Below, one piece after another: positions 1-62,941 of a stretch of 64,000 nucleotides of DNA (position 1 is its first letter; each line of letters opens with the position of its first letter). Position numbers and translations under genes: made by a program. The DNA comes from Nannobrachium achirus. Taxonomy: Eukaryota > Chordata > Actinopteri > Myctophiformes > Myctophidae. The stretch is from positions 5,077,104-5,141,103 of the forward strand of contig OY997653.1 in the NCBI GenBank assembly GCA_963921795.1, read 5' to 3'. Below the pieces are notes generated by a model, which saw only the letters and a program-made list of their open reading frames with translations, did not search any database and was not told where the DNA came from.

Positions 1-285
1 CGATTCTATAAGTGTCTTCTGAATCCTTCTAAGGTTTTTTGAAATGGTTATGTTTCTATGTCGGTGGTGCTCAAACTTTTTCATGTGAAGGACCCCCAAA
101 ATGATATGTATTTGGTCCTGGACCCCCATCTCAAAATATTGTATCAGGGACCCCCCAGAAGCAAATATTTGAGTTACAAATCTTCATGATTTTTCAAAAA
201 TAGCAGATCTAGATGGAGCTTGTATATCTGCTATTTTTCAATGGTTAAAGCATTCAATAATTCTAGGCCTAAATAGTTTAATCTC
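1..285 (+). repeat. Composite non-autonomous DNA transposon repeat, copy 1 (GGACCCCC family)
   Basis: It begins inside a unit shared with 1790-2355 and 5730-6325: a CTATAAGTGTCTT stretch, then GTGCTCAAACTTTTTCATG and GGACCCCC, then AT-rich DNA with the hairpin module, then TTCTAGGCCTAAA. The 'gg...ctcaaa...ggaccccc' type of end resembles hAT non-autonomous elements, but no target duplication is visible because the left edge is cut by the window. No coding potential. Confidence 0.6.
201..233. repeat. Palindromic module copy 1
   Basis: TA-GCAGATCTAGA...TATATCTGC-TA hairpin flanked by AAAAA and TTTTT. It sits inside the GGACCCCC-family repeat. The inner CACAACGC part of the consensus is missing. 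Confidence 0.75.
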
Positions 286-690
286 TTGTCCCGTATATCC
301 TAGCCTCTCTCTGCTTTGGGAGTGCCAAGTGGCTGAAAGAGGTGGTCCCTCAGACAAGGTGCCCTTCAAGAATGCCAGCCTATTCAATCTCATGTCATCC
401 CTCTGTCAACTGAGTGTCCGTAAGGACTGCCAAGTGCCCCGCGAAGTGTCCTTAAGCCAAGACATCTTGAAAACGGACATTGTTTTTCTTTAACAACGGG
501 TCGGCCAGGTTCGGGTTCGGGCAGAATTTGAGAACTCTTAACGGGGAAAGACTCCTGCGTTATCGGCTGATACCGACAACAAGCCTCCTCCGAGCTACTT
601 ACTTACTTACTTACTTACATACTTACTTACTTACTTACTTACTTACTTAGGTCCCATTCAATTTGTTTGGAAAGAAAGTTATAATTTTGG
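286..690. other. Unassigned stretch with (ACTT)n microsatellite
   Basis: No gene seen. An ACTT tetranucleotide array lies at about 600-648. The rest shows no repeat ends or exon signals that I can support. Confidence 0.7.
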
Positions 691-697
691 CCCAAAG

Positions 698-1598
698 CAG
701 GGGTCTTCAACAGGGGGTCCGCGACCCCTAGGGGGTCCGCGGGGATACTACAGGGCGTCCCCGAAATTGTTGGGAAAAAAAAACATTGGAGAAAAAAAAA
801 AGTTTAAATATACATATTTTTTTTATTTAAAAAAAGAAAAAACAAATGTAATGTGTCTTTAAAAAAAACATGATTCTGTCTCTTTTGAATACTGTACAGG
901 ATTATTGTGCAATTGACAGATTGTTAGTGATAGATTGATAGTATTTATAAATGGCAGTGTACAGTATGGCTACTTGTACATGCACGTTTAAAATTAAAGC
1001 ATGACTATATTATTTTAATAGCATAGTATTGAAAGCACAATAACATGGTATCACGTAATATGTATACACATTAAACACAATTGTATACATTAATATACAA
1101 TATATGTTGTAGCCCCAGCCCCACCCTACAAGGTAGGGCAGGGTTTCCCAATTAGTTTTCCCCAAGGGCCGAATTATATCTAGGGTACCAAGCCAAGGGC
1201 CACAACATTGCAGGGGGCGACGGCGGCGTTCCTGCTACTCCAGCGACAGTTCAGATATCGTCGTTGTCGGGTGAAAATCTTGTATGTCCAAAACCGTTCG
1301 TTTTGAATTTATAATTTTTAAAATAATTTAAACTCTTGAAAACAGCCGATCTACAAGCCTCGCGGTGCGAGGCGTTGTGTGCTTGTAGATCTGCTGTTTT
1401 CACTACTTTTGTGCGACGGCCTTGTATGATTTGCGAAAGAACGTACAAATTTGGAGATACAAGATTTCCAGCCGACAACGACGATATACTAGTGTTGTTG
1501 CTGCTCTTATACCACCATTATTACTGGGGTTGGTGCGCGGGCCGCCTATTGGGGAACCAGTTTGGGGGTCCCTGGCCTGAAAACATTGAAGACCCCTG
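698..1598 (+). mobile_element. Non-autonomous hAT element (CAGGGGTCTTCAAC ends)
   Basis: The ends are inverted: CAGGGGTCTTCAACAGGGGG on the left and ATTGAAGACCCCTG on the right. Flanking 8-mers are similar (gcccaaag and gcctatag, 6 of 8), as expected for an aged hAT target duplication. No transposase frame. A second pair of hAT-like ends (CAGGGTTTCCCAATTAG near 1137, ATTGGGGAACC near 1550) suggests a nested hAT inside it. It carries a palindromic module at 1345-1394. Confidence 0.75.
1345..1394. repeat. Palindromic module copy 2
   Basis: GCCGATCTACAAGC...GCTTGTAGATCTGC hairpin inside the 698-1598 hAT. Outer flanks GAAAACA and TGTTTTC extend the palindrome, with CA/TG in place of TA/TA. Confidence 0.8.
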
Positions 1599-1789
1599 GC
1601 CTATAGTAATCAACCTTCTCTCTCTCTCTCTCTGACTGCCCTAGCTCCCCACTGACTGTCCTGTGGAGTCTCCCATGGAGAAGGAAACCAACGGAGTCAA
1701 GCTCCAACATTCCTTCAGCTTCTCCCGCGAGACGTCTCTGTGAGCCCAGAGCACGTCGTGTCTCCGGACCGCAGGGAAAACGCCTCTCT
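1599..1789. other. Unassigned stretch with short (TC)n run
   Basis: A CT-repeat run near 1617-1634, then ordinary sequence. I see no gene. Confidence 0.6.
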
Positions 1790-1856
1790 TTAACCCATTC
1801 AGAACGGGTACACATTATTGTGTATCATTATTTTATGCTTTAACTATTGAAAAATA

Positions 1857-1888
1857 GCAAGTGCCGCGCTGTGAGCTTGTATATCTGC
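1857..1888. repeat. Palindromic module copy 3 (right half complete)
   Basis: The right arm GTGAGCTTGTATATCTGC is complete and the left arm is reduced to GCAAGTGCCGC. Flanks are GAAAAATA and TATTTTTT. Confidence 0.7.
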
Positions 1889-2252
1889 TATTTTTTTAAA
1901 TCGTGAAAATTAGAATTTTGACCCGATTCTATAAGTGTCTTTTGAATCCTTCTAAGGTTTTTTGAAAAACCTATATGTTTCTATGTCAGCAATCTGGCCA
2001 GCCATCGTCAAAGAAAAGGTCCTTTTCAGCTCAGTTGGTCTGTTCTTGAGAGACTGCTATGTCAGTGGTTCTCAAACCTTTTCATGTGAAGGACCCCCAA
2101 ACTGATATTTATTTTGGCCACGGACCTGCATCTCAAAATATTTAGTTCCAGGGACCACCCAGAAGCAAAATTTGAGTTACAAACTTTCGCTTTGAAATAC
2201 ATACCGGTATATTCAAAGATTTGCACACATTTTCACGACTTTAAAAAAAATA

Positions 2253-2311
2253 GGAGATCTACAAGCTCGCAGCATGTCACTCTGTGCCGCGCTGTGAGCT
2301 TGTATATCTGC
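2253..2311. repeat. Palindromic module copy 4
   Basis: GAGATCTACAAGCTCGCAGC...GCTGTGAGCTTGTATATCTGC inside the GGACCCCC-family repeat. The inner arms are of the CACAGCGC subtype rather than CACAACGC. Confidence 0.8.
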
Positions 2312-2447
2312 TATTTTTCACTGGTTAAAGCATTCAATAATTCTAGGCCTAAATGCACAAAGGATGTCATCAGGAACGTGCAGAGAATGTTAGAGAGGCA
2401 GGGGCTGACATTTCTAAAAGGGCCTTTTGGTGGAAATATCGAAAATA

Positions 2448-2482
2448 GCAGACCTCTAAGTACACAACGCTTGGAGGTATGC
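2448..2482. repeat. Palindromic module copy 5 (divergent subtype)
   Basis: GCAGACCTCTAAG...CTTGGAGGTATGC between GAAAATA and TATTTTC. Same outer arms and TA placement as the others but a diverged core. The CTTGGAGGTCTGC core recurs at 15661-15673. Confidence 0.65.
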
Positions 2483-2523
2483 TATTTTCCGTGCTTGATA
2501 CCACACTGAACTAAGCATCATTT

Positions 2524-3010
2524 TGTGAATACTGGAGATACTGGAGTACGGCATGGATTTCTACAACAGAGAGGGCGATTCTTTCAACATAAGACGCTGC
2601 ATTCAAGTTCAGGAGAGTTTGGACAAGACAGTCCTCTTGAACGCTGCCTTCAGGTATGGCATGGAAAGAGGGGCATTTGCATTCCTTTTACCACAGTAAA
2701 AACTGCATTTATGGTCTGGAGAAGGAACTTTTTACAGACGGATAAAAGCGCAGGGGCTCAAGCCCCCTTTGATGTCTACAAAATCATCTCCAATCTCCAT
2801 AACAATTTGAAAGGCAAAACAGGGAAAGAAAGCTGTGGGAAAAAAATGCCTGGATGTCAACGTGACGTCGGATCACAGGAGAAACAGAACAGATGTCGCT
2901 TTCCTGCTGACCTGGGACGCATGTATCCCAGTATAAACAAACATGTATACTGTGCGAAAAGCTTGATTTTCACGATGTCAAGCAACCGCGGGGTATAATT
3001 CTGATATGTG
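2524..3010 (+). pseudogene. Coding-looking relic, family not recognised
   Basis: Two stretches read like protein-coding DNA. The first, from the ATG at about 2552, gives a frame starting MDFYNREGDSFNIRRC and ending GAFAFLLPQ. The second, about 2840-2935, gives LDVNVTSDHRRNRTDVAFLL in another frame. Frame changes between blocks and the lack of splice sites at every junction suggest a decayed gene or processed copy; a 26-base poly(A) run follows at 3035. I do not recognise the protein. It could be a retrocopy ending in the poly(A), or part of a transposon. Confidence 0.25.
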
Positions 3011-3339
3011 GAAACTCTTAACCCGAGCCCACGCAAAAAAAAAAAAAAAAAAAAAAAAAACACAAAACACAAGCACACCAGAAGTATTTCACAGTCACAA
3101 TACGTGGGGTGGATTCTCTAACCCGGGTGGAGCGGGTCCCCCGACGACAAGGCACACCGGGAGTCTTATGTCCCAGCTTTCATCCCACATTCTGTGGCTG
3201 AACCCCAGCGCCCCCTGTGGTATATGGGGTTCAGCGCACGGCCCTTTTAACCGCATGTTCCCCAACACCCGCTGTGGAGATGGAAGAGGATTCTGCTCGA
3301 AACGAACACGGCTTTGGCTGCTGTGATGTCGTACTATTA
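3011..3339. other. Poly(A) run and unassigned GC-richer stretch
   Basis: A-run at about 3035-3060, then about 270 bp of GC-richer sequence in which I see no supported gene or repeat end. Confidence 0.5.
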
Positions 3340-3737: not shown

Positions 3738-3901
3738 TATAGGGGCGTTTGGTTTGTCTGCAAAGTACAGAAGCACAGTGAAACACATACGAGAGAGAGT
3801 TAAAGGGCTCCGCTGCACTCGTTTTCCGTCTCTGTCGGGTGGATACCATTATGTCCAAGACTGTACCTTTTCAGGATTCAAATTCACACGCATCAAGAGT
3901 A

Positions 3902-3953
3902 GCAGATTGACAAGCTTGACACGCGTGGCAAAGTTTCAAGCGTGTGGATCTGC
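3902..3953. repeat. Palindromic module copy 6 (degenerate)
   Basis: GCAGATTGACAAGCTTGACACG...CGTGTGGATCTGC; the outer arms (GCATCAAGAGTA and TGATGC) extend the palindrome only in part. A diverged member. Confidence 0.5.
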
Positions 3954-3971: not shown

Positions 3972-4412
3972 CAAGGGTCTTCAACAGGGGGTCCGGGACC
4001 CCTAGGGGTCCTCAAGAGTTACTACAGGGGGGGCCTCCAAATCTTTGTGTGATAGAAACCTTTTTGTCCATATTCTGAGAACTTTAGCCAAAGATAGCAG
4101 ATCTACAAGCTCACAACACCTCGCGTTGCGAGGCGTTGTGAGCTTGTAGATCGGCTATTTTCGGCAAAGAGTTTTGGCGTAGAGGGGAACAAGAGCAGAC
4201 TAAGTACAGAGTGAAAGGTCATGTTTATTAAGTATTGACGGTTCAAGTGGTTAAATATCTGAAAACACATATTGACACGAATCCAAAATACACTGATGAT
4301 TGCCCTGTCAAACGATTAAACTATCTGGAATCTATGAAAAGGTTGTGGGGGTCCCTGCTTCATCTCTCCCTCAACTAAGGGGTCCTTGGCCTGAAAACGT
4401 TGAAGACCCCTG
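3972..4412 (+). mobile_element. Non-autonomous hAT element, same family as 698-1598
   Basis: Starts CAAGGGTCTTCAACAGGGGG and ends CGTTGAAGACCCCTG. Internal order matches the other copies: GGACCCCTAGGGGTCC, then ACTTTAGCC, the hairpin module, then CGGCAAAGAG. No transposase. Confidence 0.75.
4097..4155. repeat. Palindromic module copy 7
   Basis: GCAGATCTACAAGCTCACAA...GCGTTGTGAGCTTGTAGATC inside the hAT. Outer flanks TTTAGCCAAAGATA and TATTTTCGGCAAAG are near-complementary. Confidence 0.85.
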
Positions 4413-5849: not shown

Positions 5850-5868
5850 GCAAAACTTGTAGATCTGC
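5850..5868. repeat. Palindromic module copy 8 (right half only)
   Basis: CTTGTAGATCTGC followed by TATTTTTTG; the left arm is eroded to ATTGCAAAA. Confidence 0.55.
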
Positions 5869-6234
5869 TATTTTTTGAAAAATCGTGAAAATTAGAATTT
5901 TGACCCGATGCTATAAGTGTCTTTTGAATCCTTCTAAGGTTTTTTGAAAAACCTATGTTTCTATGTCAGCAATCTGGCCAGCCATCATCAATGAAATGGT
6001 CCTTTTCACTTAACTGGAGCTCAGTTAGTCTGCTCTTGAGAAACTACTATGTCAGTGGTTCTCAAACTTTTTCATGTGAAGGACCCCCAAAATTATATGT
6101 ATTTGGCCATCTCAAAATATTTAGTTCCAAGGACCACCCAGGCCAGAAGCAAAATTTAAGTTTCAAACGTTCGCTTTGAAAATACATATATTCAAAGATT
6201 TGCACACATTTTCACGTCTTTTTAAAAAAAAATA

Positions 6235-6278
6235 GCAGATCTACAAGCTCGCAGCGCGCTGTGAGCTTGTATATCTGC
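6235..6278. repeat. Palindromic module copy 9
   Basis: GCAGATCTACAAGCTCGCAG...GCTGTGAGCTTGTATATCTGC with A- and T-rich flanks around TA; CACAGCGC subtype. Confidence 0.8.
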
Positions 6279-6325
6279 TATTTTCAATAGTTAAAGTATT
6301 CAATGATTCTAGGCCTAAATGGGTT

Positions 6326-6550: not shown

Positions 6551-6689
6551 TAGGGCTGTCACAATTATTACATTATCGTCTGATCGCAATTATTTGACAT
6601 AATCGTGATTATTTTTCATAATTGTCATAATCGTTTCCATGTTAAAAAATTGTCATATATTTTTGAAAAAGTCAAAAATAGTGGAAATA

Positions 6690-6726
6690 GCAGATCTACA
6701 AGCTCACTGTGAGCTTGTAGATCGGC
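6690..6726. repeat. Palindromic module copy 10 (cleanest insertion context)
   Basis: A 37-bp core: GCAGATCTACAAGCTCA then CTGTGAGCTTGTAGATCGGC. Flanks AGTGGAAATA and TATTTCCACT are perfect complements. Removing the core plus one TA leaves AGTGGAAATATTTCCACT, an 18-bp perfect palindrome with TA at its centre. Confidence 0.9.
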
Positions 6727-6770
6727 TATTTCCACTATCAATGTTCATTTTTTTTATTTTTTATTTTTTT

Positions 6771-7018
6771 CAATATTGAACTATGTCATTAATATAACTT
6801 TTAATATAAACTTCCCCCCCTTCTGTGTTGCCTAGAACTGGGAGATTGATTTTGGGGTTTGTATTGTAAAGTACAACGGTGTGATGTCATCAAGTTGTAC
6901 TTTACAATACAAACCCCAAAATCAATCCTCCAGTTCTAGGCAACACAGAAGGGGGGGAACTTTTTTTCTATTTCCACACAACTCCTCTAAGGTATATTAA
7001 TGACATAGTTCAATATTG
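6771..7018. mobile_element. Palindromic MITE, about 248 bp
   Basis: Nearly full-length palindrome. Outer arms contain AACTATGTCATTAATATA and its complement; inner arms contain TTGTATTGTAAAGTACAA and TTGTACTTTACAATACAA around a short spacer. Outer flank CAATATTG is itself a palindrome with TA at its centre. Confidence 0.8.
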
Positions 7019-7230
7019 AAAATGGGTGGTCTTCCCCTTTAAGTATAAAGTTGTCAAATATGTCAGTAATTTATTCTATATTTAGGTTATGTGTCATACT
7101 ACCATGTGCAACGTCAAAGCCTACAAGCCAAAGAGAAATGTAATTGTCAACGACAGAAACACAATGTTAATCGCAATTATTTGAGTGACAATTAATCGTC
7201 AAGTAAAATGTCATAATCGTGACAGCCCTA

Positions 7231-8180
7231 CCCACAGTGTCTGTGTGCTTGCCTCTAGTTCCGGGTGCCGACACAGTGGCTCTGCCAGCCTCATCCTTCT
7301 CTCTCTGACTGTCTGTGACCCGTAAGGGTCCATTTGGTTCCATTTATACACTCTCAGAGTTACAGCCCTGTAAGGGTTCATTTGGAAGGTCAAGGAACCC
7401 AGGGACCCCCCTACTGCAGTATGGAGTGAACCTGGTCATAACCACATCACCACATGAGCCCTATAGTGTCCCTATTCTGGGCCAGCATTTGGTGAAAATA
7501 GCAGAGATTGTGAGCTTGTAGATCTGCTATTTTCGGTGAAGAGATTTGGTGTAGAAAAGGACCAGACCAAGTAGAGCCCTTAGTTATGCTAATATATTTA
7601 TACTGTATCTGTATAAGTGGTTAAACATACAATATACAAACAGTCAACATGTTTGTATCTTAATGCGATGCTGCATCAAGTTATCATTATGGGAAGATCG
7701 GTTAAAAAATGATTCTTTAAATCATATAGCCGATTGACTGCGCTTATACTGTATACACACTTCATTGTTCCATCCTCCATCTATCCAGCTATTAACCCTG
7801 TTCACACCGTGGCCATTCTTCTAGGGGGGCGGGGTTTCATGTATGTTGTTTATTTATATAATGTAACAATATTATGCTGTCTCAACTAGTTTAGAAGTAA
7901 TAGGTTAAATAAAACATGTCTTATTAATTAATTCCACTTGGCGGCGCTAAAGTGCAGAGGGAAAAAAAACAGACTTCTCCTGTGGTTACCATCTGTATCT
8001 GGCATTAAAAAATAAAGCAAACTAATACAGTATTCACACTAAAGACTAGTGAGTGCATTGACTGAGAGGATGTCCATTGACTTTCTAAACAGGGTGTAGC
8101 TCGTCAGGGGCGTCACAAGGGGGGATGTGGGACTGAGTTACTAGGGCCCAAGGTGGAGGGGCCTTCATTATGTTATAAAA
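7231..8180. other. Mostly unassigned; carries module copy 11
   Basis: Continuation of the sequence interrupted at 6551. A module lies at 7501-7527 in TTTGGTGAAAATA...TATTTTCGGTG context. The remainder holds no gene or element end that I recognise. Confidence 0.5.
7501..7527. repeat. Palindromic module copy 11 (27 bp, left arm short)
   Basis: GCAGAGATTG then TGAGCTTGTAGATCTGC between GAAAATA and TATTTTC. Outer flanks are TTTGGT and CGGTGAAG. Confidence 0.75.
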
Positions 8181-8183
8181 ATA

Positions 8184-8226
8184 GCAGATACAAGCTCACA
8201 GCACAGCTGCAAGCTTGTAGATCTGC
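8184..8226. repeat. Palindromic module copy 12
   Basis: GCAGATACAAGCTCACAGC...GCAAGCTTGTAGATCTGC flanked by AAAAATA and TATTTTTG. Confidence 0.8.
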
Positions 8227-8497
8227 TATTTTTGAAAAGTCGTGAAAATGTGAGCACATCTTTTAATATAATGTATTTTTAAGCGAACATTTGTAACTCA
8301 ACATTTTGCTTCTGGGGGATCCCTGGAACAAAATATTTTGAGATGTGGGTCCGTGGCCAAATACACATCATTTTGGGGGTCCTTCACATGAAAAGGTTTG
8401 AGCACCATTGACATAGAAACATAGGTTTTTCAAAAAACTTTAGAAAGATTTGAAATATTCAAAGACTTGCACAAATTTTCACAATTTTTAAAAAATA

Positions 8498-8558
8498 GCT
8501 CCAAGCTCCAAGCTCACAGCGCGGCACTCGGTGCCGTGCTGTGAGCTTGTATATCTGC
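8498..8558. repeat. Palindromic module copy 13
   Basis: Eroded left outer arm (GCTCCAAGC), then AGCTCACAGCGCGGCAC and its complement to TATATCTGC; CACAGCGC subtype with a long inner stem. Confidence 0.75.
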
Positions 8559-8886
8559 TATTTTTCAATAGTTAAAGCACAAAATGTGAGTGGATCCTTG
8601 TACCCAGGGCCCAGAATTTGGTGCTACACCCTTGCAGCTCATGTGCATGTGATCAGCACTGCCAGTCTATCTTCATGGATTAAAGTTCTCAGGCTGATTT
8701 CATTTGGATTCTAGAGAAGTCAGCAGGTCTTCTATAGAAGCATTTTGCGCAGCAACAATAGTCTATTTTTTTTAAGAGCATTTGAAGTGGGCATTCAGAA
8801 TCATCTTCCATAAAATCCTAATGGTCTCTGATATTTCATTAAAAAATAAAAGGTTAAAGCCTCAGTGGAAACAATGTTCCTTAAAG

Positions 8887-9160
8887 CAGGGGTCTTCAAC
8901 AGGGGGTCCGGGACCCTTTAGGGGGTCCTCAGAGTTACTACAAATCTTTGTGTGATAGAAGCTTATTTATATAGATTATATATTCACCACTTGAACCGTA
9001 TGTGGGTCCATATTTTGAGAACTTTAGCCAAAAATAGCAGATCTACAAGCTTGTAGATCGGCTATTTTCGGCAAAGAGGTTTGGTGTAGAGGGGGAAAAA
9101 GCAGACTAAGTACAGAGTGAAATGTCAAGTAAAGTATTGACGGTTCAAGTGGTTAAATAT
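8887..9160 (+). mobile_element. hAT element of the 698-1598 family, right end lost
   Basis: Starts CAGGGGTCTTCAACAGGGGG, keeps the GGACCCTTTAGGGGGTCC stem, ACTTTAGCC, the module and CGGCAAAGAGG, then fades without a recognisable right end. Confidence 0.65.
9037..9062. repeat. Palindromic module copy 14 (26 bp, shortest complete copy)
   Basis: GCAGATCTACAAGC joined directly to TTGTAGATCGGC, with no CACAACGC inner part. A complete hairpin at half length, inside the same hAT position as copy 7. Confidence 0.8.
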
Positions 9161-11180: not shown

Positions 11181-11310
11181 AAACCTTTCGACCCCCAAAT
11201 TGATATATATTTGGCCACAAACCCCATCTGAAAATGTTTTTTTTTTTTTATAGATCTAAATTATTCAATTTCTTTTCATATACAAGCTTTTTCTAAAATG
11301 TTCAAAGATA

Positions 11311-11668
11311 GCAGATTTACAAGATAGATAGATACCTTTATTATCCCACAGGGGAAATTCAGTTGCCCAGAGGCAGCACAGCAGTTAAGGTTACAAGTTA
11401 CAGAGACTTAAGAAAAAGAAAAAGAGTACTGTAGTATACAGTCCAAAGAGCAAGCACAAAAAAAGATAAATAAAACATAAAGTGTCGAAAGCTATTGCAA
11501 AAAGAGAAGAAGAATATACTGTATACATAAACCACGAAACATTCAACGCTCATAAGTGACACGTCACACACACAAAAAAGCTATACTCAAGCATAACTTA
11601 GCAAACAGTGCCAAACAAAAGAGTTGCAGGGCGGCACAAAGTGATGCACTGTGAGCTTGTAGATCTGC
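11311..11668. repeat. Palindromic module copy 16, split by a LINE 3' end
   Basis: Left arm GCAGATTTACAAG (11311-11323) and right arm CACTGTGAGCTTGTAGATCTGC (about 11647-11668) are separated by about 320 bp of LINE-like tail. Flanks CAAAGATA and TATCTTTG match each other. Confidence 0.75.
11324..11640 (-). mobile_element. LINE (L2-like) 3' end, reverse orientation
   Basis: Starts ATAGATAGATACCTTTATTA then TCCCACAGGGGAAATTCAG, the reverse of a typical fish L2-group 3' end with its short tandem tail. It is 5'-truncated and non-coding. The insertion point lies inside a palindromic module. Confidence 0.65.
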
Positions 11669-11672
11669 TATC

Positions 11673-12181
11673 TTTGAGAACTACTGTTCTAAATCTAAAG
11701 AGTTTTCAGAAAAACGTACAGTATGTGCCAATACTGACCTGGGTTGTGTGGAGGTAATGTCTTCACAACAAGTTTTCTTTGATTATATCTCTGTATTATT
11801 CAAACTTGACTGGCATTATAATATGTAATATTTCAGGTAGATTGCCCAGACAATAGCTATGTATGCGCTTGTATTTGCAGACAATTGTGTTCAATGTCAA
11901 TACTGCTGTTAAAAGACATTGAGTTTCTTTTTACTTTTGAAGGTGCTGTTGTATACTTTGTTGAAAGCAGACCACAGGTAGAATCTGTTTGTCAAAGATA
12001 CAGTTGGCTCTGTCTGGACTCATCAATGATAATAACCTGTACTTTCATGTTTCAGTCAAAACATGTTGAGTAAAATCTGTAGGTCTACAATACAATGATT
12101 TTAATCCTCAGTCATCTGGTCTTCATTTCTTGTTTTTCACATGCAGCTACAGAATCACTTGATCATGATCATTTGAAATGG
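11673..12181. other. No recognised feature
   Basis: Single-copy-looking AT-rich DNA upstream of the Ig relic. A 62-codon frame here (11885-12073) has no supporting context. Confidence 0.55.
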
Positions 12182-13908: not shown

Positions 13909-14292
13909 CAGTGGTGGGAAAAGTACTAGTTTGCTTGAGTAAAATGTATTGGCATGAAAATGTATCAAAAGAAAAAGTACTCATTATGCAGAATGTCCCA
14001 TTTCACAAGTTGAAAATGTCTGAAAAATCTTTTGAAAATAGCCGATCTAAGCTCACAATGCATTGCATCGCGACGCATTGTGAGCTTGTAGATCTGCTAT
14101 TTTTGAGTGGCCAAAATGTATATAGGGCTGAAGTGGTTAATGTGTTTTTTGTAATAATGAAAAACTACAAAGTAACTAGTAACTAAAAGTTTCAAATAAT
14201 TGTAGTGGAGCAAAAGTACAATATTTGAAGAAAACTTTTTTGGAATTGGAAATACTCAAGTAAAGTAAAAATACCTCAAATTTCCACCACTG
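13909..14292. mobile_element. hAT-like non-autonomous element (CAGTGGTGG ends)
   Basis: Inverted ends CAGTGGTGGGAAAAGTACT and AAATTTCCACCACTG. The internal layout (ACTCAAGTAAAGTAAAAATA near the right) is shared with 46528-47020, 41.5-42.3 kb and 53495-54029. It carries a module at 14041-14097 and lies just after the stop in the Ig relic. Confidence 0.7.
14041..14097. repeat. Palindromic module copy 17
   Basis: GCCGATCTAAGCTCACAATG...CATTGTGAGCTTGTAGATC between TTTTGAAAATA and TATTTTTGAG. Confidence 0.85.
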
Positions 14293-19615: not shown

Positions 19616-19647
19616 ATGTTTAAAGATTTTTTTTTCTTAAAAAAATA

Positions 19648-19698
19648 GCAGATTTACAAGCTTGCAGTGTGGAACGAAGCTGTGAGCTTGTATATCTG
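19648..19698. repeat. Palindromic module copy 19
   Basis: GCAGATTTACAAGCTTGCAG...GCTGTGAGCTTGTATATCTG just outside the right inverted arm; the last bases of the right arm are lost. Confidence 0.7.
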
Positions 19699-27957: not shown

Positions 27958-28140
27958 ACGAGTTTCCTACGCCCCATAGTGCATTGCGCACAGGTCTGCA
28001 CCGATCTTCCGCCGCCGATTTACAAGCTCACAACGGGTTGCATCTGCGACGCGACGTGAGCTTGTATGTCTGCTGTTAAACCCGGAAGTTTGGTCCTGAT
28101 AGTCTCCAGTAAACTCCCGCGGAAACTTGTGGATATATAT
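27955..28140. repeat. Palindrome with module copy 20 at its centre
   Basis: Outer arms TATATCCACGAGTTTCC and GGAAACTTGTGGATATA; middle arms CTTCCG and CGGAAG; inside lies the module GATTTACAAGCTCACAACG...CGACGTGAGCTTGTATGTC (28016-28073). Three nested levels of symmetry. Confidence 0.7.
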
Positions 28141-29100: not shown

Positions 29101-29777
29101 ACTACGTTGAGAAATAGTTCCTAATGTTTGAATGACTGGACCATTGTAAGTTCTTTGAGTTTGCAATATGCTTTGAAAAGTCCCTTAACTCATACAGTGC
29201 CGCCGGCCACAAGGGGCGCTAGAGTGCCAGAAATGTCTCTATAGACCTTCGCTCTAGCTTCCGTCGACACTGTCCTAAGTGCCTTGGGATTTCACTCCAG
29301 CCAATGCTATGGGTGACGAGAGGAGGAAGCTAGCTGACACGTAGCCAAAATGCTAACCCATTTAGAAGCCCGATCTAAAGCTATTTCAGTCGCAAAAAAC
29401 TTTCTCTTTGGGTCTGGGAACACAATCCGGAGAAAATCCTGTCTAAAGATGTGATTTATTATTGGAGTGGGCGGTGCGATGCGGCCGTTAGCGCGACTAC
29501 GGCCCGTGTTGGCCTGGACCATGGATGGACGTTTAGACCGGGGCTTCGTTGAGGCCTCCGATTAAATAATTAATTTTATTAAATATCCCGAACTAGTTCG
29601 GGATAGGCACCCTGGAATACGTCGCGCCGCCGACAGTATATATTGAGGGTTTTTTGGGGGGCTCTAAACTTTATTTTAAACCATTTTCAATGGAATAAAT
29701 CGTCGGACCATCTAGCGTCTCTCGTTGGCTAGCGCTGGACGAGCAAGGACCACCCACGTTGCTCCAAGCAGCGCGGG
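29101..29777. other. CpG-rich stretch ending at a splice-donor-like site
   Basis: GC- and CpG-rich DNA (29190-29780) that could be a promoter or first exon. Its end, GCGCGG|GTAAGT once the retrovirus is set aside, is a strong donor consensus. CGAACTAGTTCGGGATAGGCA at 29589 is nearly repeated at 35606. No protein recognised. Confidence 0.35.
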
Positions 29778-29782
29778 GTAAG

Positions 29783-30281
29783 TGATAGTAAAATATGTTA
29801 TTGTTGTTTAACATGGTATAGATACCATTTTCAGTGTCAATGTCATGATGTTTTGAACAACTAACTAACGCAGGAGAATGACCACTGAGAGATGCCAATC
29901 AGGTCATTATGTACAGGACACAGGATAACAAAACGCCAAACATACTATCTGCCCTTACGACTGGTGCCTGTAACACGAAAACATCTGATATCCATTGCTC
30001 TACTGTACTTGTCATGTTTAACTTTGTCCAATCAGAATGTGACTAATGTATTCTGTAAATCCATATATCTGTGAAATCATTATGCTTGTCACTCAGAGAG
30101 AAGCAAAGATGGGTGATTTTGCTCTACTGTACTGCTGTACAGTAATTTGAACTCTGACTAAACTTCAACACAAAACGCATATTCCCTGGTGTGGACATTC
30201 ATCATTTCTTGTGTGTGGAGTATTTTATTATGATTGGGGAAACTGTTTATCCATATGGAATATGATTTTACATTTCCATCA
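29783..30281 (+). repeat. 5' LTR of the ERV
   Basis: TGATAGTAAAATATG... to CATTTCCATCA; 499 bp, matching 35057-35555 almost base for base. Confidence 0.92.
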
Positions 30282-30282
30282 A

Positions 30283-30300
30283 TGGTCCTTCGAGCCGGAT
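30283..30300 (+). promoter_or_regulatory. Primer-binding site, tRNA-Tyr type
   Basis: TGGTCCTTCGAGCCGGAT is complementary to the 3' end of vertebrate tRNA-Tyr (CCGGCTCGAAGGA plus CCA) and lies one base after the LTR. Confidence 0.8.
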
Positions 30301-31860
30301 TAGCTCCGAGGAGATATTGGGGACTCAACATTGTTGGACTCATTTTGTCTTCTCCGCTGCTAGAACCAGTTACGGATTTCTACTGATTTGACGTTTATGG
30401 ATTCGATACAGCTGGACAGTTTGTTTTGGAATCCCACTTCGTTCATCTCTGCTAGTAACAACCAGCCGAGGATATTATCAGACGTTTCCCCTGCAAGCAA
30501 ACTAGCTTTTATTTCATCCTCCACCTACCCGACCAGCTGCAAAATGGGGAATGCACAGGGAGGCAGAAAACACCTGCCGAAATCTAAACAACCTTTTTAC
30601 AAACGGAACAACACCTTTGAGTTTGAAGCGTCTCTTCAAAGCTTGGGGAATGAACTGATAACAGCTTTAAGGGCTAAGATAGACAATGAGGAAATGAAAC
30701 AGGTTGTTTCTAGGTGCCCCACAATTGCACCATTTTTGCCCATATGGAGAAAGGAATTCGGATATGATGACTCTCTCCCACATCAACATATCGATAAAAT
30801 CTCACAACGGTCTGAAGAAAGCCGAAATGGAGGCGGCCAGGTTTGGCTCTGGCACAGCGTTCCACACCAGGAGCCTTTCACGGACGGTCTCTCTCCCCTC
30901 ATCTCTCCGCACAGAGACTTTGAGAGGGCGACATGCTTCATTCTCACACACTGTCTGAGTCCTAATTCAACAGAACCCAGGTCATACGTTTATACCTGCT
31001 GTCTTAAGAGTCTAGCTAGCTCTTAACACAGCTGCGTTTTTAATGTTTAATGTTTTTAGTATATTGGTTTTGTCGCTTTTTGTTGCACGAAGGAGTAACA
31101 GAATAGAGACTGAGGTTTCCTATTCTGAAGACATAGCAGCCGTTTGGCCGCGGAGATTGCATGTCAATAGTTGGTGTATCAGTACAAGACTTAATTTAGA
31201 TTTCATGTATACTCCAGAACGGCTGCGGTTTCAAGTTCTGAGAAAAAAAAATCTTTATGTTGAGTATACTCCAGAACGGCTGCGGTTTTAAGTTCTGAGA
31301 AGAAATCTTTTGTGTTGAGCCAGAACATATTCTTGTTCTGAAGAAGTCTTTTTGGCCAGTACGGTACCCAATACGGCTGTTTCAAGCCACTTAATCACAT
31401 AAGAAATAGCGTGGTTATTTTAATTGGTAGATTTCCTTTATGTTCCAGAACCGAACGTTCTGACGGAAATCTTCATGCTTTACGCTTACACGTCTTCGTT
31501 TTCGTCTCAGTCTTATCTTATTTTATTTATTTTTTATTTCCATCTCAGGCGACTCTGAGATGTTGAATAAAGGAGCTTTTTATCTCAGCGCTCCCAAGAA
31601 CATTTTAAGAAACATGACCATTCAAGCTAAAGAAGCCCCCTGCTCCGAGAAGCAGTGTTTTTATCGTGTAAAACCTGGACCCACACGGATGAGAGGTTAC
31701 AATCTAAACCCGGACCTCAAGTCACTTTGGAAGATCACCGGGGACTTCCAACCATCAATACCTAAAACCTTTCCTGGAACATTTCAATGGATATGTGCGA
31801 AGCCGCAGAGAAATTGGACATTATTGCCACTGGATGCCTTTCACTCACAAAGCGATGGGA

Positions 31861-31884
31861 CGCGTTGTGAGCTTGTAGATCTGC
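31861..31884. repeat. Palindromic module copy 21 (right half) inside the ERV
   Basis: CGCGTTGTGAGCTTGTAGATC then TGCTA; the left side keeps only CTCACAAAGCG. It shows the module reached a retroviral context as well as DNA transposons. Confidence 0.65.
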
Positions 31885-33699
31885 TACGTGACTTTCATGG
31901 ATTACAATTTCCCGAAAAGAACAAACACTCTTTTGACCCTGGGGACGCCCCGAGACAATGGTACTATATATTTTGTTTACTTTTGACTAAGTACGACTTC
32001 TGAAAAAAAAAAAAAAAAAAAAATCAAGTTCTGACTGACAAACCCATGTGTTAAATGTTTTTGATAATCTATCTCTGTCTAATCATCTCTAATCCCCTTT
32101 TCCTCCCCGGGTTACAACTATTATGAAAAAAAAAAGGGAAACTAAAAAATCAAACCAAGTATGAAGTGAGCAGTGCTCATGTGTTCTGTGCATAAACTGC
32201 AGTGTGTGCTTATCTCGCTTATGCTGCTGGCTTGCTGCTTGCCCGCGCTCGCTTGACCGATACTTACATTTTGGTTTATTATTGTTTTATTTTGAAAAAA
32301 AAAACTATGAGGGGCTGGAATTGTTTTTTTATTTTCATTTTTTCTTATTTTTACCTTGAGAGGCCACGAGCCGTTTCAGTTTCTGTGTGACCTTGCTCTC
32401 TCTTTCTCTCTCAAAAATGGGTTTCATTCGCTCTTGTTCTGTATAATTTACTGTTTACATTCTAATACAGGGCTTGATAACAATGTGCTGGGGTTATATT
32501 TGAATCTGTCTTATTTGAATCTGTCTTGGGTTTTTCTCCCTCTGTTTGTGTTCTAACTCACTTGCCTGGTTTGCAAAACTAGGAATTATTTACACATATG
32601 ACTGTCTCTCTCTCTCTCTCTAAAAAGGGATCTCATTCACTCTTGGTATGACTACACTCGTACTGATAACAACCAACGCTTGGGTTTATTTGAATGTTTA
32701 TATATGATGCCCCTAACGTCTTAATAATTTTTTTTTCTCCCTAATGTATTAATTCTTTTTCACCAATGTGGTAGGGATTATTTTTACTTTATTTATTTCA
32801 TTTTAGGGGACAGGACGGACTCGACCTGGATAGACAGGTATCGTGGAAGGAACTCCACTAACTCGCTAACCAACTTGACTGACACTCAACTTGACGGACT
32901 GACGGTTTTATTTCAATCTTATTTTAGCCAGTTTAATTTCATGACTGTTTATTTTATTATAACCCATTTTCTCCTGTCCTACTGTTTTGTCGTGAAAACC
33001 GTTCCTCTTGCAGAGAACGTGTAAACAACTGACTTGCTTTCATTCCTTTCTAAAACAACTGATAGTCTGCTAGAAGACAGGCCTTCAAGGTCAGAGGGTC
33101 TGTGTGTGTGAGATTTATTATTTAGTAATCCTGTTCTTTTAAACCACATCTTATGGACAAGAACCAAAAACATTTACTTTTACCATTCTTAACACATAAA
33201 CTGCAGTATGGGTTAAGGATGGAAGAGGCCTAGCCCTGCTTTACTCAACCTTTAATTTCTCATGTTGGTTTATTTTTGGTAATACTTTATCCTCTTTACT
33301 TGAGTAAAAGCAGGCTGAGACGGTTCCAAAAACAATTTAGATGGCTGGGCTCCATTCAAACCTTCCCAGTCAAATTCCACAATTATTACAACCCTACTGG
33401 GTTTATACGGGATTACACATTAAAAAATAATAATAATAATAATAATAATAATGACATTATGATTATGTTATGTGTTTCTATTTAATTTTTCTTATTTTTA
33501 TTTCTTTAAAGTTTCATTCATTTTCTGGTTAGAGAGGCTTTAAACAGGCCTCGCTAACTATTGTATGGTACACTTCCCCCCTCACAGGCCTGGAAGTTTC
33601 TCATTTAACCATATTTTAACAAATTATCCTCCAAACAAAACAATTTTTGTCACACCCAATATTTTTGGCTGTGGCAAACGGGAGGGAATGTGTTTGGAG

Positions 33700-33800
33700 A
33701 ATTTCATTTTCTGAATTCATATTTCATTTTCTGAATTCATATTTTATTTTCTGAATTCATATTTCATTTTCTGATTTCATATTTACATATTTCATTTTGT
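33700..33800 (+). repeat. Short tandem repeat in the ERV interior
   Basis: About five units of TTTCATTTTCTGAATTCATA. Confidence 0.8.
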
Positions 33801-35056
33801 TTTCATCTCATTTTATTTCAGAATATATATATATATATTTCACTTTGCTTAACCATGTTTAAATCTGTTTACCCCTAACAGAACAAACTTAATACAATTT
33901 GACACAAATGGTGTCCCTTGGTGATGTATATCTAAAACAAATCAAACATGTCTATACCTAAATACACACAATGGTCTTAACTTCCATGTAATTCTGATGT
34001 TTATTCTATTTTTCAGACTTATCTATTTGATAGACGGTCCATATCTCTTCCCATGATCTGTGAGGAAGGATCATTTTTCGTGAGTACGAGGATTCAAGTC
34101 ACCTGAGTTCCTATATCATTTTGTTTTGTTAATATATTTTGTTAATATTTACAGTTGTCTTGTCCCAAAATGCAACTCTCTTCTTTTGATAAGATTTCAT
34201 AGCCTCGTCCTGGAAATGAAATGTCATATTCGTTATAAAACCTTACTGGAAATGATGAGGACAGAGGTCCTACCTTACTGTTGTGGAGTCAAAAAGTCCC
34301 CCCTGGCTGGGACACCCTGGCGAAGGTCATAGGTCAAGCAAGGAATGGACCATGACGCTCCACCACACTAATCAAATTTTCAAAATTCTACATTCGTCAA
34401 TCTCAGGTGATGACTTCACCAAATAAATCAAAACTTCTAAAGAAAAAAATATATTCTCTTTCATTAAATGCACTCTCTGGAGTGCACCTCCACCAAACCC
34501 AGGTGAGGCTGTGAAGAAACTTTGGAAAGATTCTAAATTTAGTGATAAAGTTTGTCATGGTGCGACAGGACAATGTTTGTTATTGATGGATCAAAGGTTT
34601 CCTTTTTCTATCAATATATTTTAAGGAACGTGTGATTGTCTCCTCACTCTCATAAAAATATTCTAACTCATGTTATCTAAACTTAAACAGGCCCCAAATT
34701 AAACAGGCCTTATTTGAGAAAATATCCTTGGTTTAATCTCAGACTGCCCTTTGACGCACTCCCCCTAATGATTCCAAATTATACAGTCCTTTATCTTTCA
34801 TTATCAAAATATTTTCACCTTTGGTTGTATTCTGATTTAAATACCTTTAAAAATACTTAAATACCTTTGGAAATATACAGTTCTTTTAACTCTCCTCTTT
34901 AAAACTTAAAGCTATCGAAATGTTCATGTTGACTTAAAATTTTCAATGATTGTTTTCCGTTTCAAATACTTTTAAAAAGTTTAACCCATGTTTTCTTCCC
35001 TTGTTGTTTATGCTGCCTTGACATTTAACACTTCAAATGCTATCTCAGGAGGGAAT

Positions 35057-35555
35057 TGATAGTAAAATATGTTATTTTTGTTTAACATGGTATAGATACC
35101 ATTTTCAGTGTCAATGTCATGATGTTTTGAACAACTAACTAACGCAGGAGAATGACCACTGAGAGATGCCAATCAGGTCATTATGTACAGGACACAGGAT
35201 AACAAAACACCAAACATACTATCTGCCCTTACGACTGGTGCCTGTAACACGAAAACATCTGATATCCATTGCTCTACTGTACTTGTCATGTTTAACTTTG
35301 TCCAATCAGAATGTGACTAATGTATTCTGTAAATCCATATATCTGTGAAATCATTATGCTTGTCACTCAGAGAGAAGCAAAGATGGGTGATTTTGCTCTA
35401 CTGTACTGCTGTACAGTAATTTGAACTCTGACTAAACTTCAACACAAAACGCATATTCCCTGGTGTGGACATTCATCATTTCTTGTGTGTGGAGTATTTT
35501 ATTATGATTGGGGAAACTGTTTATCCATATGGAATATGATTTTACATTTCCATCA
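35057..35555 (+). repeat. 3' LTR of the ERV
   Basis: 499 bp, TG...CA, followed by GTAAG. See the 5' LTR. Confidence 0.92.
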
Positions 35556-42224: not shown

Positions 42225-42240
42225 CGTGAGCTTGTAGTCT
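42225..42240. repeat. Palindromic module copy 23 (right half)
   Basis: CGTGAGCTTGTAGTC then TATTTTCAAAC. Confidence 0.55.
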
Positions 42241-42360
42241 ATTTTCAAACATTCTGGACTTACTTTTGATGCTTTTAAGTAGATTTTGATGGCAATACTT
42301 TCCGGAGGATTTCTACATTGCAGTATTGATACATTTTGGGCCCTTTTTTACACCACTGCC

Positions 42361-46782: not shown

Positions 46783-46823
46783 AAAATCCATAATTCATAT
46801 AGTGTTGAAAATGGTTGAAAATA

Positions 46824-46882
46824 GCAGATCTACAAGCTCACAACGCATTGCAATGTGAGGCGTTGTGAGCTTGTAGATCGTC
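46824..46882. repeat. Palindromic module copy 24
   Basis: GCAGATCTACAAGCTCACAA...GCGTTGTGAGCTTGTAGATC. Without it and one TA the flanks read GGTTGAAAATATTTTCAAAC, a near-perfect TA-centred palindrome. Confidence 0.88.
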
Positions 46883-47469
46883 TATTTTCAAACAGCCAGG
46901 GTATAACACACAATATTTGGATCTGAAATGTAGTGGAGTAAAGTAAAAGTATTGGAAATACTCAAGTAAAGTACAAATACCTCAATATTGTAAAAATACA
47001 GTACTTAGTTGCTTTACACGACTGTAAACAGTGACATCACAGACAAATCCTTGTATCTTCTTACGATGAGCATTTCTGCAGCGCAAAAAAAAAAAAGTTG
47101 AGATTCATTGCATAGCTACTCTGTACCCAGAGTCTGTACCATATAGCCTACTACAAGGCAAGCCAGCTGACGACAAGCTGTTTTATAAACACTGACGTCC
47201 AATCATGGATCACTTTTTTGAAGGGTGGGTGTGAGTGGACATTGGTAAAAGTGGATGGAGGTACAGTAGGTCAGGGTGTTTGAGGTCTTCTTTCTCTCAA
47301 GTTCAGTCTTCCATGTTTCTATGGTTTATAGTCCATATTGTTTATAGTTTTGTACGCCATAGTCTATAGACCATTTTCAAAGTGGATGACGGGGCACCCT
47401 GGGGTGCCCTGACGGCAGTCCAGGGGTGCCGCAAGATAATTTGATAATATTTGGATGTTATTTGGACAC

Positions 47470-50396: not shown

Positions 50397-50399
<3 letters not shown>

Positions 50400-59330: not shown

Positions 59331-60599
59331 GTTGGCAAGGTTATTTGTTATTTTCCATTGAGATCCTTAATATCCTTATATACCCCTGTAAACTATTCCT
59401 AAAGGGTTAAACCTAACCCTATTCCTAATCTTGACCTCAGAAAGATATGCGTAATCCTAAAGTTATTTCTAACGTTATTCACAGTAAAACAAATACAAGA
59501 ATACAAGTGCAATCTTGGCGAGTTTCTTTCTGGCGACTCTTATCGGTTACCGGTTCATGAATAAATAAATAAAAAAATGTATTGCAGCATACTGCCAATA
59601 AATCCTATTTTGGTCTTAACATGTGTTTTGTGATGCTCTGATCATTTGGACTGGTGAGTTACAATTTGAAAGATATGCAATAATGCACATCAAGTAACTA
59701 ATGCATTTTATTGTCATTTGAAGTTTGCTACTCATTCTTTGGGGTTAGATGTACAAGATCAAAGTTAAGCGAACCATTACTTTAGAAGGGTTTCCCAAAC
59801 TATTCAGACCATGACCCCCCGAAATAATCATATTTGGCCATACCTTTTAAACCCTCAACTTGGCTTTTTTTTTCCTTCTACACCAACTCTCCGAAAATAT
59901 CCCATCTACAAGCTCAACCTTGTAGATCAGTTATTTTCAGCTAATGTCCCCCACCACAAAAATTTGGCGTCCCACCTGATGTAACTCTGTGGCCCCCACG
60001 AGGGGTCCCACACCCCCTGTTGAAGACCCTTATGTTACAGTATACATTTGGTAGATTTCCGTGCTGGTGTGAGAAATGTCTAGCTGGATGCTGCATCTGA
60101 AAGGAGTTCCCCACTTCCCCTTCAGTCTATATCTGTTTTTTCTTAATCCTTGAAGATTGTGTTTTATGATTCTGCAAGGTAACAGGCTAATAATAATGTC
60201 CCATGGGGTTCATTTTAACCATTGCCTTTATTACACATATCCGACCTGAACCCAAACCTGAAAATGGAAAAGATAACTTTTGAAGGAAACAGACTAACAA
60301 TAAAAAAGGAGTCAATGAAGTGTTTTTTTTTAGATTTTAAGTATACATGACTCTATTACAGGACAAAACCGCAAGAAACGAAGCTGGAACTGTTCAGATC
60401 ACATATATAATTCTGTTTTTACTAAATACTTGAGGTGGACTTTTCTTACCAACTGCATTTTCTCAATCCTTGAATGCAAGGTACCATACTAAGTTTAACC
60501 CCATGTCTCACACATCCTACCAAAACCAAAAATGGAAAAAGAAAATAACTAATCTTATGAAATACTGTATAAAACATACAAAGCCAAATTAACACATTT
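59331..60599. other. Unassigned, with a hAT-like fragment and module copy 25
   Basis: 59785-60035 starts AGGGTTTCCCAAACTATTCA and ends CCCCTGTTGAAGACCC, a hAT-type fragment. A possible poly(A) signal, AATAAA, lies near 59594. No gene. Confidence 0.5.
59901..59930. repeat. Palindromic module copy 25
   Basis: ATCTACAAGCTCAACC joined to TTGTAGATCAG between CCGAAAATA and TTATTTTCAG; short form like the 9037 copy. Confidence 0.7.
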
Positions 60600-61721
60600 T
60601 TCCATTCAATAAGGATTTAAGGACTTCAGTAAAATTGATATCATGCTACACTTATTTCTTAATATCTTGACTCAAATTTATATATTTCGATTTCAAAATA
60701 GCAAACAGAGGAAAAGCTAGCTTGTAGTTTGACTATTTTCATAATCACAATGTTTATCTGTAGAACCGAGTCATACTAAAATTAATGCCTGAACTCCTAC
60801 ATTCCAAGTGCTTGTCAGGGTGGGGCGTCACCAGTTCAAATAGGATTATTTTGGGAGGTCCTCAGTTCTTATTTTGGATCGTCACAGCCTATATTATGTT
60901 TGAAAGTGAAAAACAGCTTGAGTATACACTGTCCAACATTACAGATACTGCATCATTTATGCCAATACTAATGTGATTCAATGGCAGCACAGGTGTGCGG
61001 GATAAAGCTAAACATTGAGCACAATTTGCTTCAGCACAAACAACAAAGTGCTACTTCTGTGGCAGGAAAATAAGATAAAGGTTCAGTGTGTGACATAATC
61101 ATTTATTTGTTAAAAGCTACAATCTGTAAAAATTATGTCCTATCTGGGACTTAAACTCTTGGTATCCTGCACAACAAGCGCCAAACTGTTTACTTGGTCT
61201 GCTATTTTCACAATATGTGGAACCGAGTCGAACAAAATCTAATGCCTCAACTCCTACAATGCTTGCCCGCCCTACAAGTGCTTGTCAGGGTGCGGGGGGT
61301 CCCCGGTTAACTTCAAATATGATTACTGTTGGTGGTCACATGATGTTGCGAACCACTGCTGCACACTGGGGGAGAAGACGACAGCCTCCACGCGGCCTCC
61401 CCTGCAAGTAACAAGAACATCTTGTGAAACAAATGTCGCCACCCAATCATCAAGGACGATGATACACGAAAGAAGAAGAAGACGACTGCTGCACACAATA
61501 ACGATAGTATGTGGCTACAGTCAAAATGCCCTTTGAAATGATTCATTCTATATTCATGTTTAGGTTAGTGAATATAGCAGTCTTAAATACAACTGAGTAC
61601 AATTGAGTCTAATGGTTTGAACTATGCACACTTGTCAGCTTAGTATGGTATGGTAAGGCAGCTGTTTAACTACAGGGCCCAGACCGGCCCACCACAACCG
61701 GCTCAAACCGAACATACTGTA

Positions 61722-61766
61722 GAAGATCTACAAGGCCATGCGTTGCGTTGTGGGCTTGTATCAGCT
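61722..61766. repeat. Palindromic module copy 26 (duplicate of copy 15)
   Basis: GAAGATCTACAAGGCCATGC...GTTGTGGGCTTGTATCAGC. Confidence 0.6.
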
Positions 61767-62492
61767 GTTAAATGTTTGAGTGGGACTCCTGGGCCACAAT
61801 AGCCTGTGATTGGGCTATTAGGCCAGTATTCAGATGATAGACAAGCCAGTGGGCCAATCATGTGATGTCTCTCTGCTCTGTGGGCTGGTGCTACTAAAGG
61901 ATTGGCCCTCTCCACTTAGTGGCCGCCCAGCCCAAACGTTACTGTAACCAGAGTGAATTGAGAGAGAGAGTGGTGCCACCGAGGGGTCAGAGAATGAACT
62001 GTGTCACGTGACCCATGTTTCAGCTCTAAATTGACAAGCGAGCGATTTAAATAACATTGGTTTCAATAGCAGCGTTGCGAATATCGGCATTTTTAGATAA
62101 ATATACAACATGACAACTGTTTTAAAGTATTTTACAGTGACAACAAAGTCTAAGTAATATTTACTTTATACTATTGCCAAAAAACAATGTAAAATAATGT
62201 GGTTTAAGATCATTAAAGTCAGGCTGTTGCCCTGTCACTGGCTAATCAATGCATCATCATAATTGTTAATATGCACAATAGCACCACCGAGAGGCAGCTG
62301 AAAGTAAGGCAATGAAAGGCATGTACTCAGTTATCTGAGACTCTGACTGTAACTATCCTAAAACTGAAGCAAAAAATAATAATAAGTAAAACTTTTTTTC
62401 TTTTGTGGCCCACAGGCCCATGTATATTCAGCCCAACAGGCATATGCCTGGTATGCCAGATGACCAGTCCACCCCTGCCGTTGCTAAACCAG

Positions 62493-62590
62493 GGGCATAG
62501 TTCCGCCGATTTAAAATGATTCCAATACGGAACTAAAACTTCCTATCATTGGCCGCTAGTTGTTTAAAATTAGCGGCTTTATGCGGTTTT
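62493..62590. mobile_element. Fragment of the element inserted at 37979
   Basis: AGGGGCATAGTTCCGCCG then ATTTAAAATGATTCCAAT; the same end as at 37979, here cutting into segmental copy B. Confidence 0.6.
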
Positions 62591-62896
62591 GATCGTGTTT
62601 TATTCGGGTTTCCGCAGTCTATTTTTTAGCTAAATGTAACACAATCGGGAACGGCTTTCCCTTTGCATCTCCACATGCACCATCCAGCAAGATATAGTCT
62701 GGATTTCTTGGTACCAACAGTCAGACAACAAGTGCCAGTTTCATAAAATCATTCAGTTCCCAGAGCTTTTCAGTTAATCTACTTAGTTACTTTACACCAC
62801 TGTCTACAACAGCAAGCATGATGGTTCCCAAACTTTTTAGCCCGTGAACCAAGAGACATTAGGGTACCCTGTACCAAACAAGTAGTAATGAAAATA

Positions 62897-62941
62897 GCAG
62901 ATCTACAAGCTCACAACAAGTCGCTTCGCACTGCGTTGTGA
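62897..62941. repeat. Palindromic module copy 27 (right outer arm lost)
   Basis: GCAGATCTACAAGCTCACAA then CTGCGTTGTG; it follows a hAT-like GGTTCCCAAACTTTTTAG fragment. Confidence 0.75.

Follow-up and report, generated by a model that had tools for sequence, protein, structure and literature searches.

A near-perfect palindrome of 71–75 bp recurs in the genome of Nannobrachium achirus, and its presence inside many unlike transposable elements is confirmed by the analysis reported here. We studied this palindrome (hereafter the module) in a stretch of 64,000 nucleotides (hereafter the window; assembly GCA_963921795.1, contig OY997653.1, positions 5,077,104 to 5,141,103 of the forward strand) and across the same assembly. 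The reading that we favour, and to which we give a probability of about one half, is that the module is an internal palindrome of hAT-like miniature inverted-repeat transposable elements (MITEs) that is amplified by its carriers and exchanged between them, without transposition of its own. A complete module consists of an arm (for example TGAAAATAGCAGATCTACAAGCTCACAACGC), a short C+G-rich inner stem specific to the family of the carrier, and the complement of the arm. Families B, C, and D have the inner stem CCTCGC, E-like copies and those at loci L046 and L047 have GTCGC, and family A has GGCAC. Some families also differ in both arms at once, with AAG replaced by ATG in family C, and AAAATAG by AAAACAG and GCTCAC by GCACAC in family D.

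The module is abundant in the window and throughout the genome

In the window we count six exact copies of the 20-base arm GCAGATCTACAAGCTCACAA, complements included. With a profile derived from 14 window arms, 23 module sites reach 10 bits or more, comprising 13 full and 10 half modules; the figure of about 27 copies given by an earlier reading of the window from its letters alone (the sequence-only reading) is approached when weaker matches are added. That reading had proposed a genome-wide search with the arm, and in the 1,658,514,493 bases and 564 contigs of this one assembly the exact 20-mer is found 25,166 times in forward and 25,042 times in reverse orientation (50,208 occurrences), whereas the same pattern read backwards is found nowhere in the genome. 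We also sampled 20 blocks of 10 kb, taking one from every contig of the set 1–20 at even megabase positions. The profile gives 119 arm matches of 8 bits or more in these blocks and none in the same blocks reversed. When paired up, the matches form 72 sites (37 full, 35 half) in 19 of the 20 blocks and 190,850 non-N bases. At one module per 2.65 kb (72 in 190.9 kb), the density in the blocks is similar to that in the window (23 in 64 kb), so that the window has nothing unusual in this respect. Extrapolation suggests 6 x 10^5 whole or half sites, a figure good to an order of magnitude only, as the blocks were taken at chosen positions.

Viral contigs contain no exact match to the 20-mer. No Rfam family matches the window at gathering score, which rules out a known structured RNA. 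A single 19-base exact match in a bacterial sequence (L001) was rejected as a relative: nhmmer found no further arm there among the matches listed, and by simple arithmetic about two such chance matches are expected in 257 Gb. No earlier description of the module surfaced in the portion of the literature returned by our searches, and a query made of sequence words returned unrelated papers only.

The main carriers are hAT-like non-autonomous elements

In agreement with the proposal that the module sits in several distinct families, we found at least seven hAT-like non-autonomous families that contain it internally and are flanked by 8-bp target duplications, namely CAGTGGTTCTCAACC, CAGGGGTCTTCAAC, CAGGGTTCCCCAAT, CAGTGTTTTTCAACC, CAGTGGTTCCAAAACCC (one mismatch), CAGGGGCGTCAATTGGG, and TAGGGCTGTCAC. 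The duplication is exact in six families and has one mismatch in the seventh, and the terminal inverted repeats (TIRs) are of hAT type, with 10 to 14 of the 14 end bases matching in the elements listed here. Such ends together with an 8-bp duplication delimit carriers of family C (L003 2347–2753 and L012 2510–2940), a carrier with C ends (L004 5661–6528), and carriers of family D (L016 5227–5605), family B (L019 3401–3848), and family C2 (L017 3660–4249), as well as an element at L018 4341–4610 and, with one mismatch in the duplication, an element at L012 1657–2020. The TAGGGCTGTCAC hAT-like element on the plus strand of the window (6551..7230) has the target duplication CCCACAGT, and the module near 6690 lies inside it, as had been noted. 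This element also has a second, longer inverted repeat (6808–6877 and 6894–6963; 70 nt, 96% complementary).

Assignments made by the sequence-only reading to two other families need partial revision. Flank clustering bears out that the copies at 4097 and 9037 belong to the CAGGGGTCTTCAAC family (family B). The copy at 1345 does not: the plus-strand element with CAGGGGTCTTCAAC-type ends at 698..1598, whose flanking 8-mers agree at six of eight positions, is interrupted at about 1139–1560 by a CAGGGTTTCCCAAT-like, D-type element, and it is this nested element that contains the module. For the CAGTGGTGG elements (family E), the copy at 14041 does lie between the hAT-like ends of an element at 13909..14292 on the plus strand, at whose ends a matching 8-bp duplication is absent; the copy at 46824 has a right flank that clusters with the family and no exact CAGTGGTGG end nearby. 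Families A and E have hAT-like ends without a demonstrated duplication.

A permissive scan for TIRs with duplications placed 14 of 95 module sites inside candidate elements, a few of them spurious, compared with 4 of 95 random positions. In a stricter scan 6 of 11 candidate elements contain the module, one of the six (L002) having a doubtful G-rich duplication. Two arrangements at other loci involve more than one module. A larger inverted-repeat element with GTGTGTGGACGTTGTGTGTG-rich ends (L046:1378–1608 and L047:1447–1643) has one module on each side, and at L048 two modules 2,011 bp apart (1150–1223 and 3161–3234), with identical printed flanks, are a recent local duplication.

Within families, the module keeps its place. 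Among 84 full modules from the window, the blocks, and loci picked by other queries, the same two flanks are retained under a stricter pairing rule in 7 modules of family C, 5 of D, 4 of B, and 4 of C2, and the module is therefore inherited in place within these families. For several families the fixed flanks and 8-bp duplications show that copy number comes from transposition of the whole element. We propose that each family would hold the module at a fixed internal position, with hAT transposition of the entire element supplying the copies.

Self-movement of the bare module is not supported

The sequence-only reading held that the module moves by itself. The evidence does not support this: place and flanks are fixed within families, and around 65 full modules we found no direct repeat of at least 8 bp (1.5 expected from re-paired flanks), which rules out a classical transposon that duplicates its target. 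Direct repeats of at least 7 bp number 6 (4.5 expected) and those of at least 6 bp number 22 (15.1 expected). Outward flanks agree in inverted orientation at 0.34–0.47, compared with 0.24–0.30, over the first six or so positions.

Sites with and without the module were also compared, using as queries the joined left and right flanks of families C, B, and E. With the C query 41 matches were listed and 14 read; 1 is a precise join (L057), 3 end at the AATAG repeat (L034, L039, and L060), and the remaining 10 junctions differ. Of 40 places scored with the B query, 5 reach across both flanks; 1 of these is precise (L055), 1 near-precise (L063), and 3 retain remnants. The apparently empty sites of C and B are thus mostly assorted deletions with module remnants. 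With the E query, 8 of the 20 spanning places read have exactly TTTGAAAATAGCC at the junction and one more (L083) has one change. Module-free E copies read TTTGAAAATAGCC followed by AAGG, whereas filled copies read TTTGAAAATAGC, the core and, beyond it, CTATTTTCAAATAGCCAAGG, so that two AAATAGC repeats enclose the core. Either an insertion that doubles AAATAGC or a slippage deletion between the two repeats would leave this junction. Filled and empty sites had been proposed as a check by the sequence-only reading; the seemingly empty ones of C and B are mostly deletions, and those of E could stem from insertion or from slippage. Because there is no excess of 8-bp repeats and the empty sites of C and B are mostly deletions, self-mobility of the module is not supported.

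A subtler form of movement, in which a folded single-stranded module or a template switch inserts at short AAATAGC homology without a transposase of its own, we regard as possible but doubtful. It would account for the doubled AAATAGC and the recurrent junction of family E and for the single precise flank-to-flank joins of B and C, and a comparable model has been put forward for the zebrafish MITE Angel (PMC12628747). Yet AAATAGC slippage would leave the same E junction, and among E copies with both flanks readable at loci not picked by the E query none has it; in these copies the module is whole, damaged, half, or replaced by another interior (L015 and window 53812). Likewise, the three AATAG junctions of family C are slippages, and most of the others differ.

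The same idea draws support from modules outside recognised hAT ends and from a half module in an element flanked by long terminal repeats (LTRs; window 29777..35350), whose 300-nt direct repeats (29777–30076 and 35051–35350) are 99% identical. The half module (31863..31886, minus strand) could still form a short hairpin with an upstream CTCACAAAGCG. The sequence-only reading had called this element an endogenous retrovirus; the half module and the LTRs are there, while neither of its two longest open frames has a match in Pfam. We searched with 136 bases that include the half module, so that every copy that can be found has one; 8 of 40 scored places match these bases over their full length, the window among them, and 32 begin at base 29–32. 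At L050 and L051 a second copy of about 50 bp lies about 110 bp upstream of the common one, between GGATG and AAACC, and L052 and L053 lack it. The half module has thus been copied over a short range within the LTR element, which would also fit insertion at short homology. L052 and L053 have other short bases at the upstream site, and their junctions differ from each other and may therefore be scars, while L054 and the window resemble a collapse between two half-module copies.

The module is shared between families with unrelated flanks

If all modules descended from one larger repeat, the flanks of different families should be alignable. We clustered 144 flanks from 95 sites and obtained 17 groups with at least two members and 41 singletons; flanks of different families are unrelated, with two partial exceptions, and the module is not a piece of one larger ancestral repeat, as the sequence-only reading had argued. 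The exceptions are informative in themselves. Families C and C2 have in common the module and about 33 bp of one flank, and L018 and family D have in common a half module and about 140 bp of one flank; in both pairs the ends differ. In addition, L026 is a recombinant inside the palindrome: its left side combines an AAG-type arm with a foreign flank, and its right side an ATG-type arm with the right half of a C element. Nesting is also seen, in the D-type element with its module inside the B-type element at 698–1598. Together with the family pairs that have only the module and one flank in common, L026 suggests that the module was transferred by recombination, template switching, or nesting, and passage of the module between families, which had been suspected, is in this sense upheld. 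A further candidate chimera at the module (L014 2066–2576) was rejected, being instead a TAGGGCATTCAC element with a C element nested inside it.

These junctions, which are observed directly, would be the traces of exchange events. The module may have entered a new family when elements recombined at the palindrome or replication switched template there, or alternatively by nesting followed by internal deletion. In eight representatives, one copy each, arm identity averages 0.89 (22 nt, minimum 0.77), whereas the best pair of 40-nt element ends averages 0.51; the comparison includes private mutations, and the arms of D and L018 are alike by descent. That arms are better conserved between families than the ends needed by a transposase suggests either that exchange took place after the ends had split or that the module is under stronger constraint.

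An alternative that we judge unlikely is that the module is a functional part of an ancestral hAT element, a binding or folding site for transposition inherited by all families while the rest diverged. Consistent with it, the main carriers are hAT-like, the arms co-vary (see below), and families B and C share end sequence past the terminal repeat and have the module in a subterminal position. On the other hand, arms are closer between families than the very ends that the transposase recognises, the module lies anywhere between about 42 and 190 bp from the nearer end, depending on the element, E and TAGGGCTGTCAC elements have different ends, and a half copy lies in an LTR element. Chance similarity or an assembly artefact, for which reliance on a single assembly is the sole basis, is refuted by the control counts and by arm copies on at least 20 large contigs in differing contexts.

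Several observations weigh against exchange among hAT-like carriers as the full account. The right flanks of A, C, and E all have AATAG at or close to their start, a similarity not predicted by simple recombination; a single clear within-palindrome recombinant was found among the copies read; modules at L040, L042, and L044 have no recognised hAT ends; and a half module is present in the LTR element. Stable unpaired differences between arms also exist, with A/C at arm position 11 in 32 of 83 modules and others at positions 15 and 25 (family A), and pairing of the arms is therefore not enforced everywhere.

Arms change in pairs and are often lost

Across 84 modules, concordant double changes exceed expectation at positions 7, 20, 23, 28, 32, and 33, with 11 at position 20 compared with 1.9 expected. 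In 32 chosen modules (29 distinct; full modules only, and with related sequences that inflate the counts), both sides have changed in 12 pairs compared with 6.9 after shuffling (1 of 500 shuffles), and in 45 cells compared with 17.0 (0 of 500); 94.7% of cells pair, against 26–45% in slid controls. These paired changes may be caused by copying from arm to arm in a folded strand, or by selection for folding.

Decay was followed in 22 alignments to one C copy, some of them from loci selected with a right-flank query. The two arms have 0.063 and 0.039 substitutions per site, similar to the 0.049 and 0.041 of the flanks, but their gaps, at 0.214 and 0.123, are far more frequent than those of the flanks, at 0.064 and 0.021. 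Dead copies of family C thus have no visible constraint and have often lost arm sequence, which explains the half modules; deletion at the hairpin, by which the centre or one arm would be removed, is shown to give half modules in this one family. We propose further that a fold that stalled replication would favour template switching and gap repair, and hence the module's own spread between elements; such a fold may be of advantage to its carriers and may be why many families keep the module.

Two variants of the module have grown. At L003:5731–5844 the inner stem has expanded into GCGCGTCGCA repeats, making a palindrome of 114 bp. At L040:31–604 half arms of A type (GCTGTGAGCTTGTATATCT), separated by AAAGTTACCAGGG spacers, are repeated in tandem at intervals of about 31 and 52 bp and are a satellite growing from the module.

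Comparison with known systems

Angel elements were reportedly described by Izsvak et al. in 1999 as short inverted-repeat elements of teleosts. According to PMC12628747, the model for their amplification has a stem-loop that is made at replication and inserted at local homology. The module resembles Angel as a fish-type MITE feature with strong foldback and, compared by description, differs in that Angel is a whole element whereas the 75-bp palindrome is a part common to unlike families. Candidates for local homology of the Angel type are the AAATAGC repeat of E and the AATAG close to the right flank of A and C modules. Template-switch mutations have been proposed to give rise to hairpins and to maintain them (Monttinen and Loytynoja 2022; PMC8794818), a process that accounts for perfect stems and simultaneous paired changes without selection; the hairpins there are in RNA genes, whereas ours is a repeated DNA module inside transposons. 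The Xenopus MITE miDNA4 has captured a satellite monomer with short direct repeats (Scalvenzi and Pollet, as summarised in PMC12628747). It too has an internal module with microhomologies on either side, which drive losses and gains of internal sequence, although, as summarised there, it involves one tandem repeat in one Tc1/mariner MITE rather than a palindrome across hAT-like families.

The carriers are like vertebrate non-autonomous hAT MITEs in their short CAGNGGT... or TAGGG... ends, their 8-bp duplications, and the non-coding nature of the copies read, and unlike them in having a 75-bp palindrome in common. Tol2 has internal inverted repeats too. Repetitive extragenic palindromic (REP) sequences and bacterial interspersed mosaic elements (BIMEs), and the palindromic elements of Rickettsia, are short, high-copy scattered palindromes with halves and composites. 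The module shares all of these traits and differs from REPs, which are tied to a Y1 transposase, in having hAT-like carriers. We know of no enzyme for the bare module.

The boldest combination of these ideas seems to us rather improbable. In it, a palindrome of the nuclear genome, about 75 bp long, would pass between transposons and enter an LTR element with no transposase involved: its folded strand would act as a template-switch donor at short homologies (AAATAGC), and hAT elements would carry it to hundreds of thousands of sites. If true, it would make the palindrome a transposon parasite that acts at the level of DNA repair. Perfect palindromes this long are unstable, yet one is widespread in this genome, and its variants, halves, and junctions form a large natural record of hairpin repair, symmetry upkeep, and deletion, and of how non-autonomous transposons swap internal parts. 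The module also makes it possible to test whether hairpins drive the amplification of fish MITEs, as was proposed long ago.

Module sites in the window

The copies at 201, 2253, and 6235, which had been grouped together, are full modules of family A (GGACCCCC), found by the profile at 196..237 (without the inner part), 2247..2317, and 6229..6286; another lies at 8177..8233. Family A also contributes minus-strand half modules at 1867..1894 and 5856..5874, and a minus-strand module with a damaged left arm at 8538..8564. The D-type module of the nested element occupies 1337..1402, with the AAAACAG and GCACAC variants on both arms. Full modules of family B are at 4090..4162 and, with the inner part absent, at 9030..9069, and a minus-strand half module with a B-like right flank is at 7508..7534. 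The module of the TAGGGCTGTCAC element is at 6683..6733 and that of the E element at 14033..14104; a full module of 75 bp with an E-like right flank is at 46816..46890, and a weak minus-strand half module with an E-like flank (10.2 bits) at 42226..42246.

Other full modules are at 19642..19698, 28014..28077 (divergent), and 59893..59938 (degenerate), and other half modules at 11304..11323 (plus strand, weak, 11.8 bits) and 11648..11675 (minus strand). A plus-strand left arm whose right arm is mostly gone lies at 62889..62917. Arms in both halves of a segmental duplication, also noted by the sequence-only reading, are present at about 10220–10283 and 61720–61768 and are weak (8–10 bits), the second including a plus-strand half module of 10.2 bits at 61720..61734. 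Apart from the modules, a 970-aa open frame on the minus strand at 54793–57705 matches a reverse transcriptase (PF00078, E 4.8e-29) and PF09004 (E 4.5e-15), and is an open frame of the long interspersed nuclear element type.

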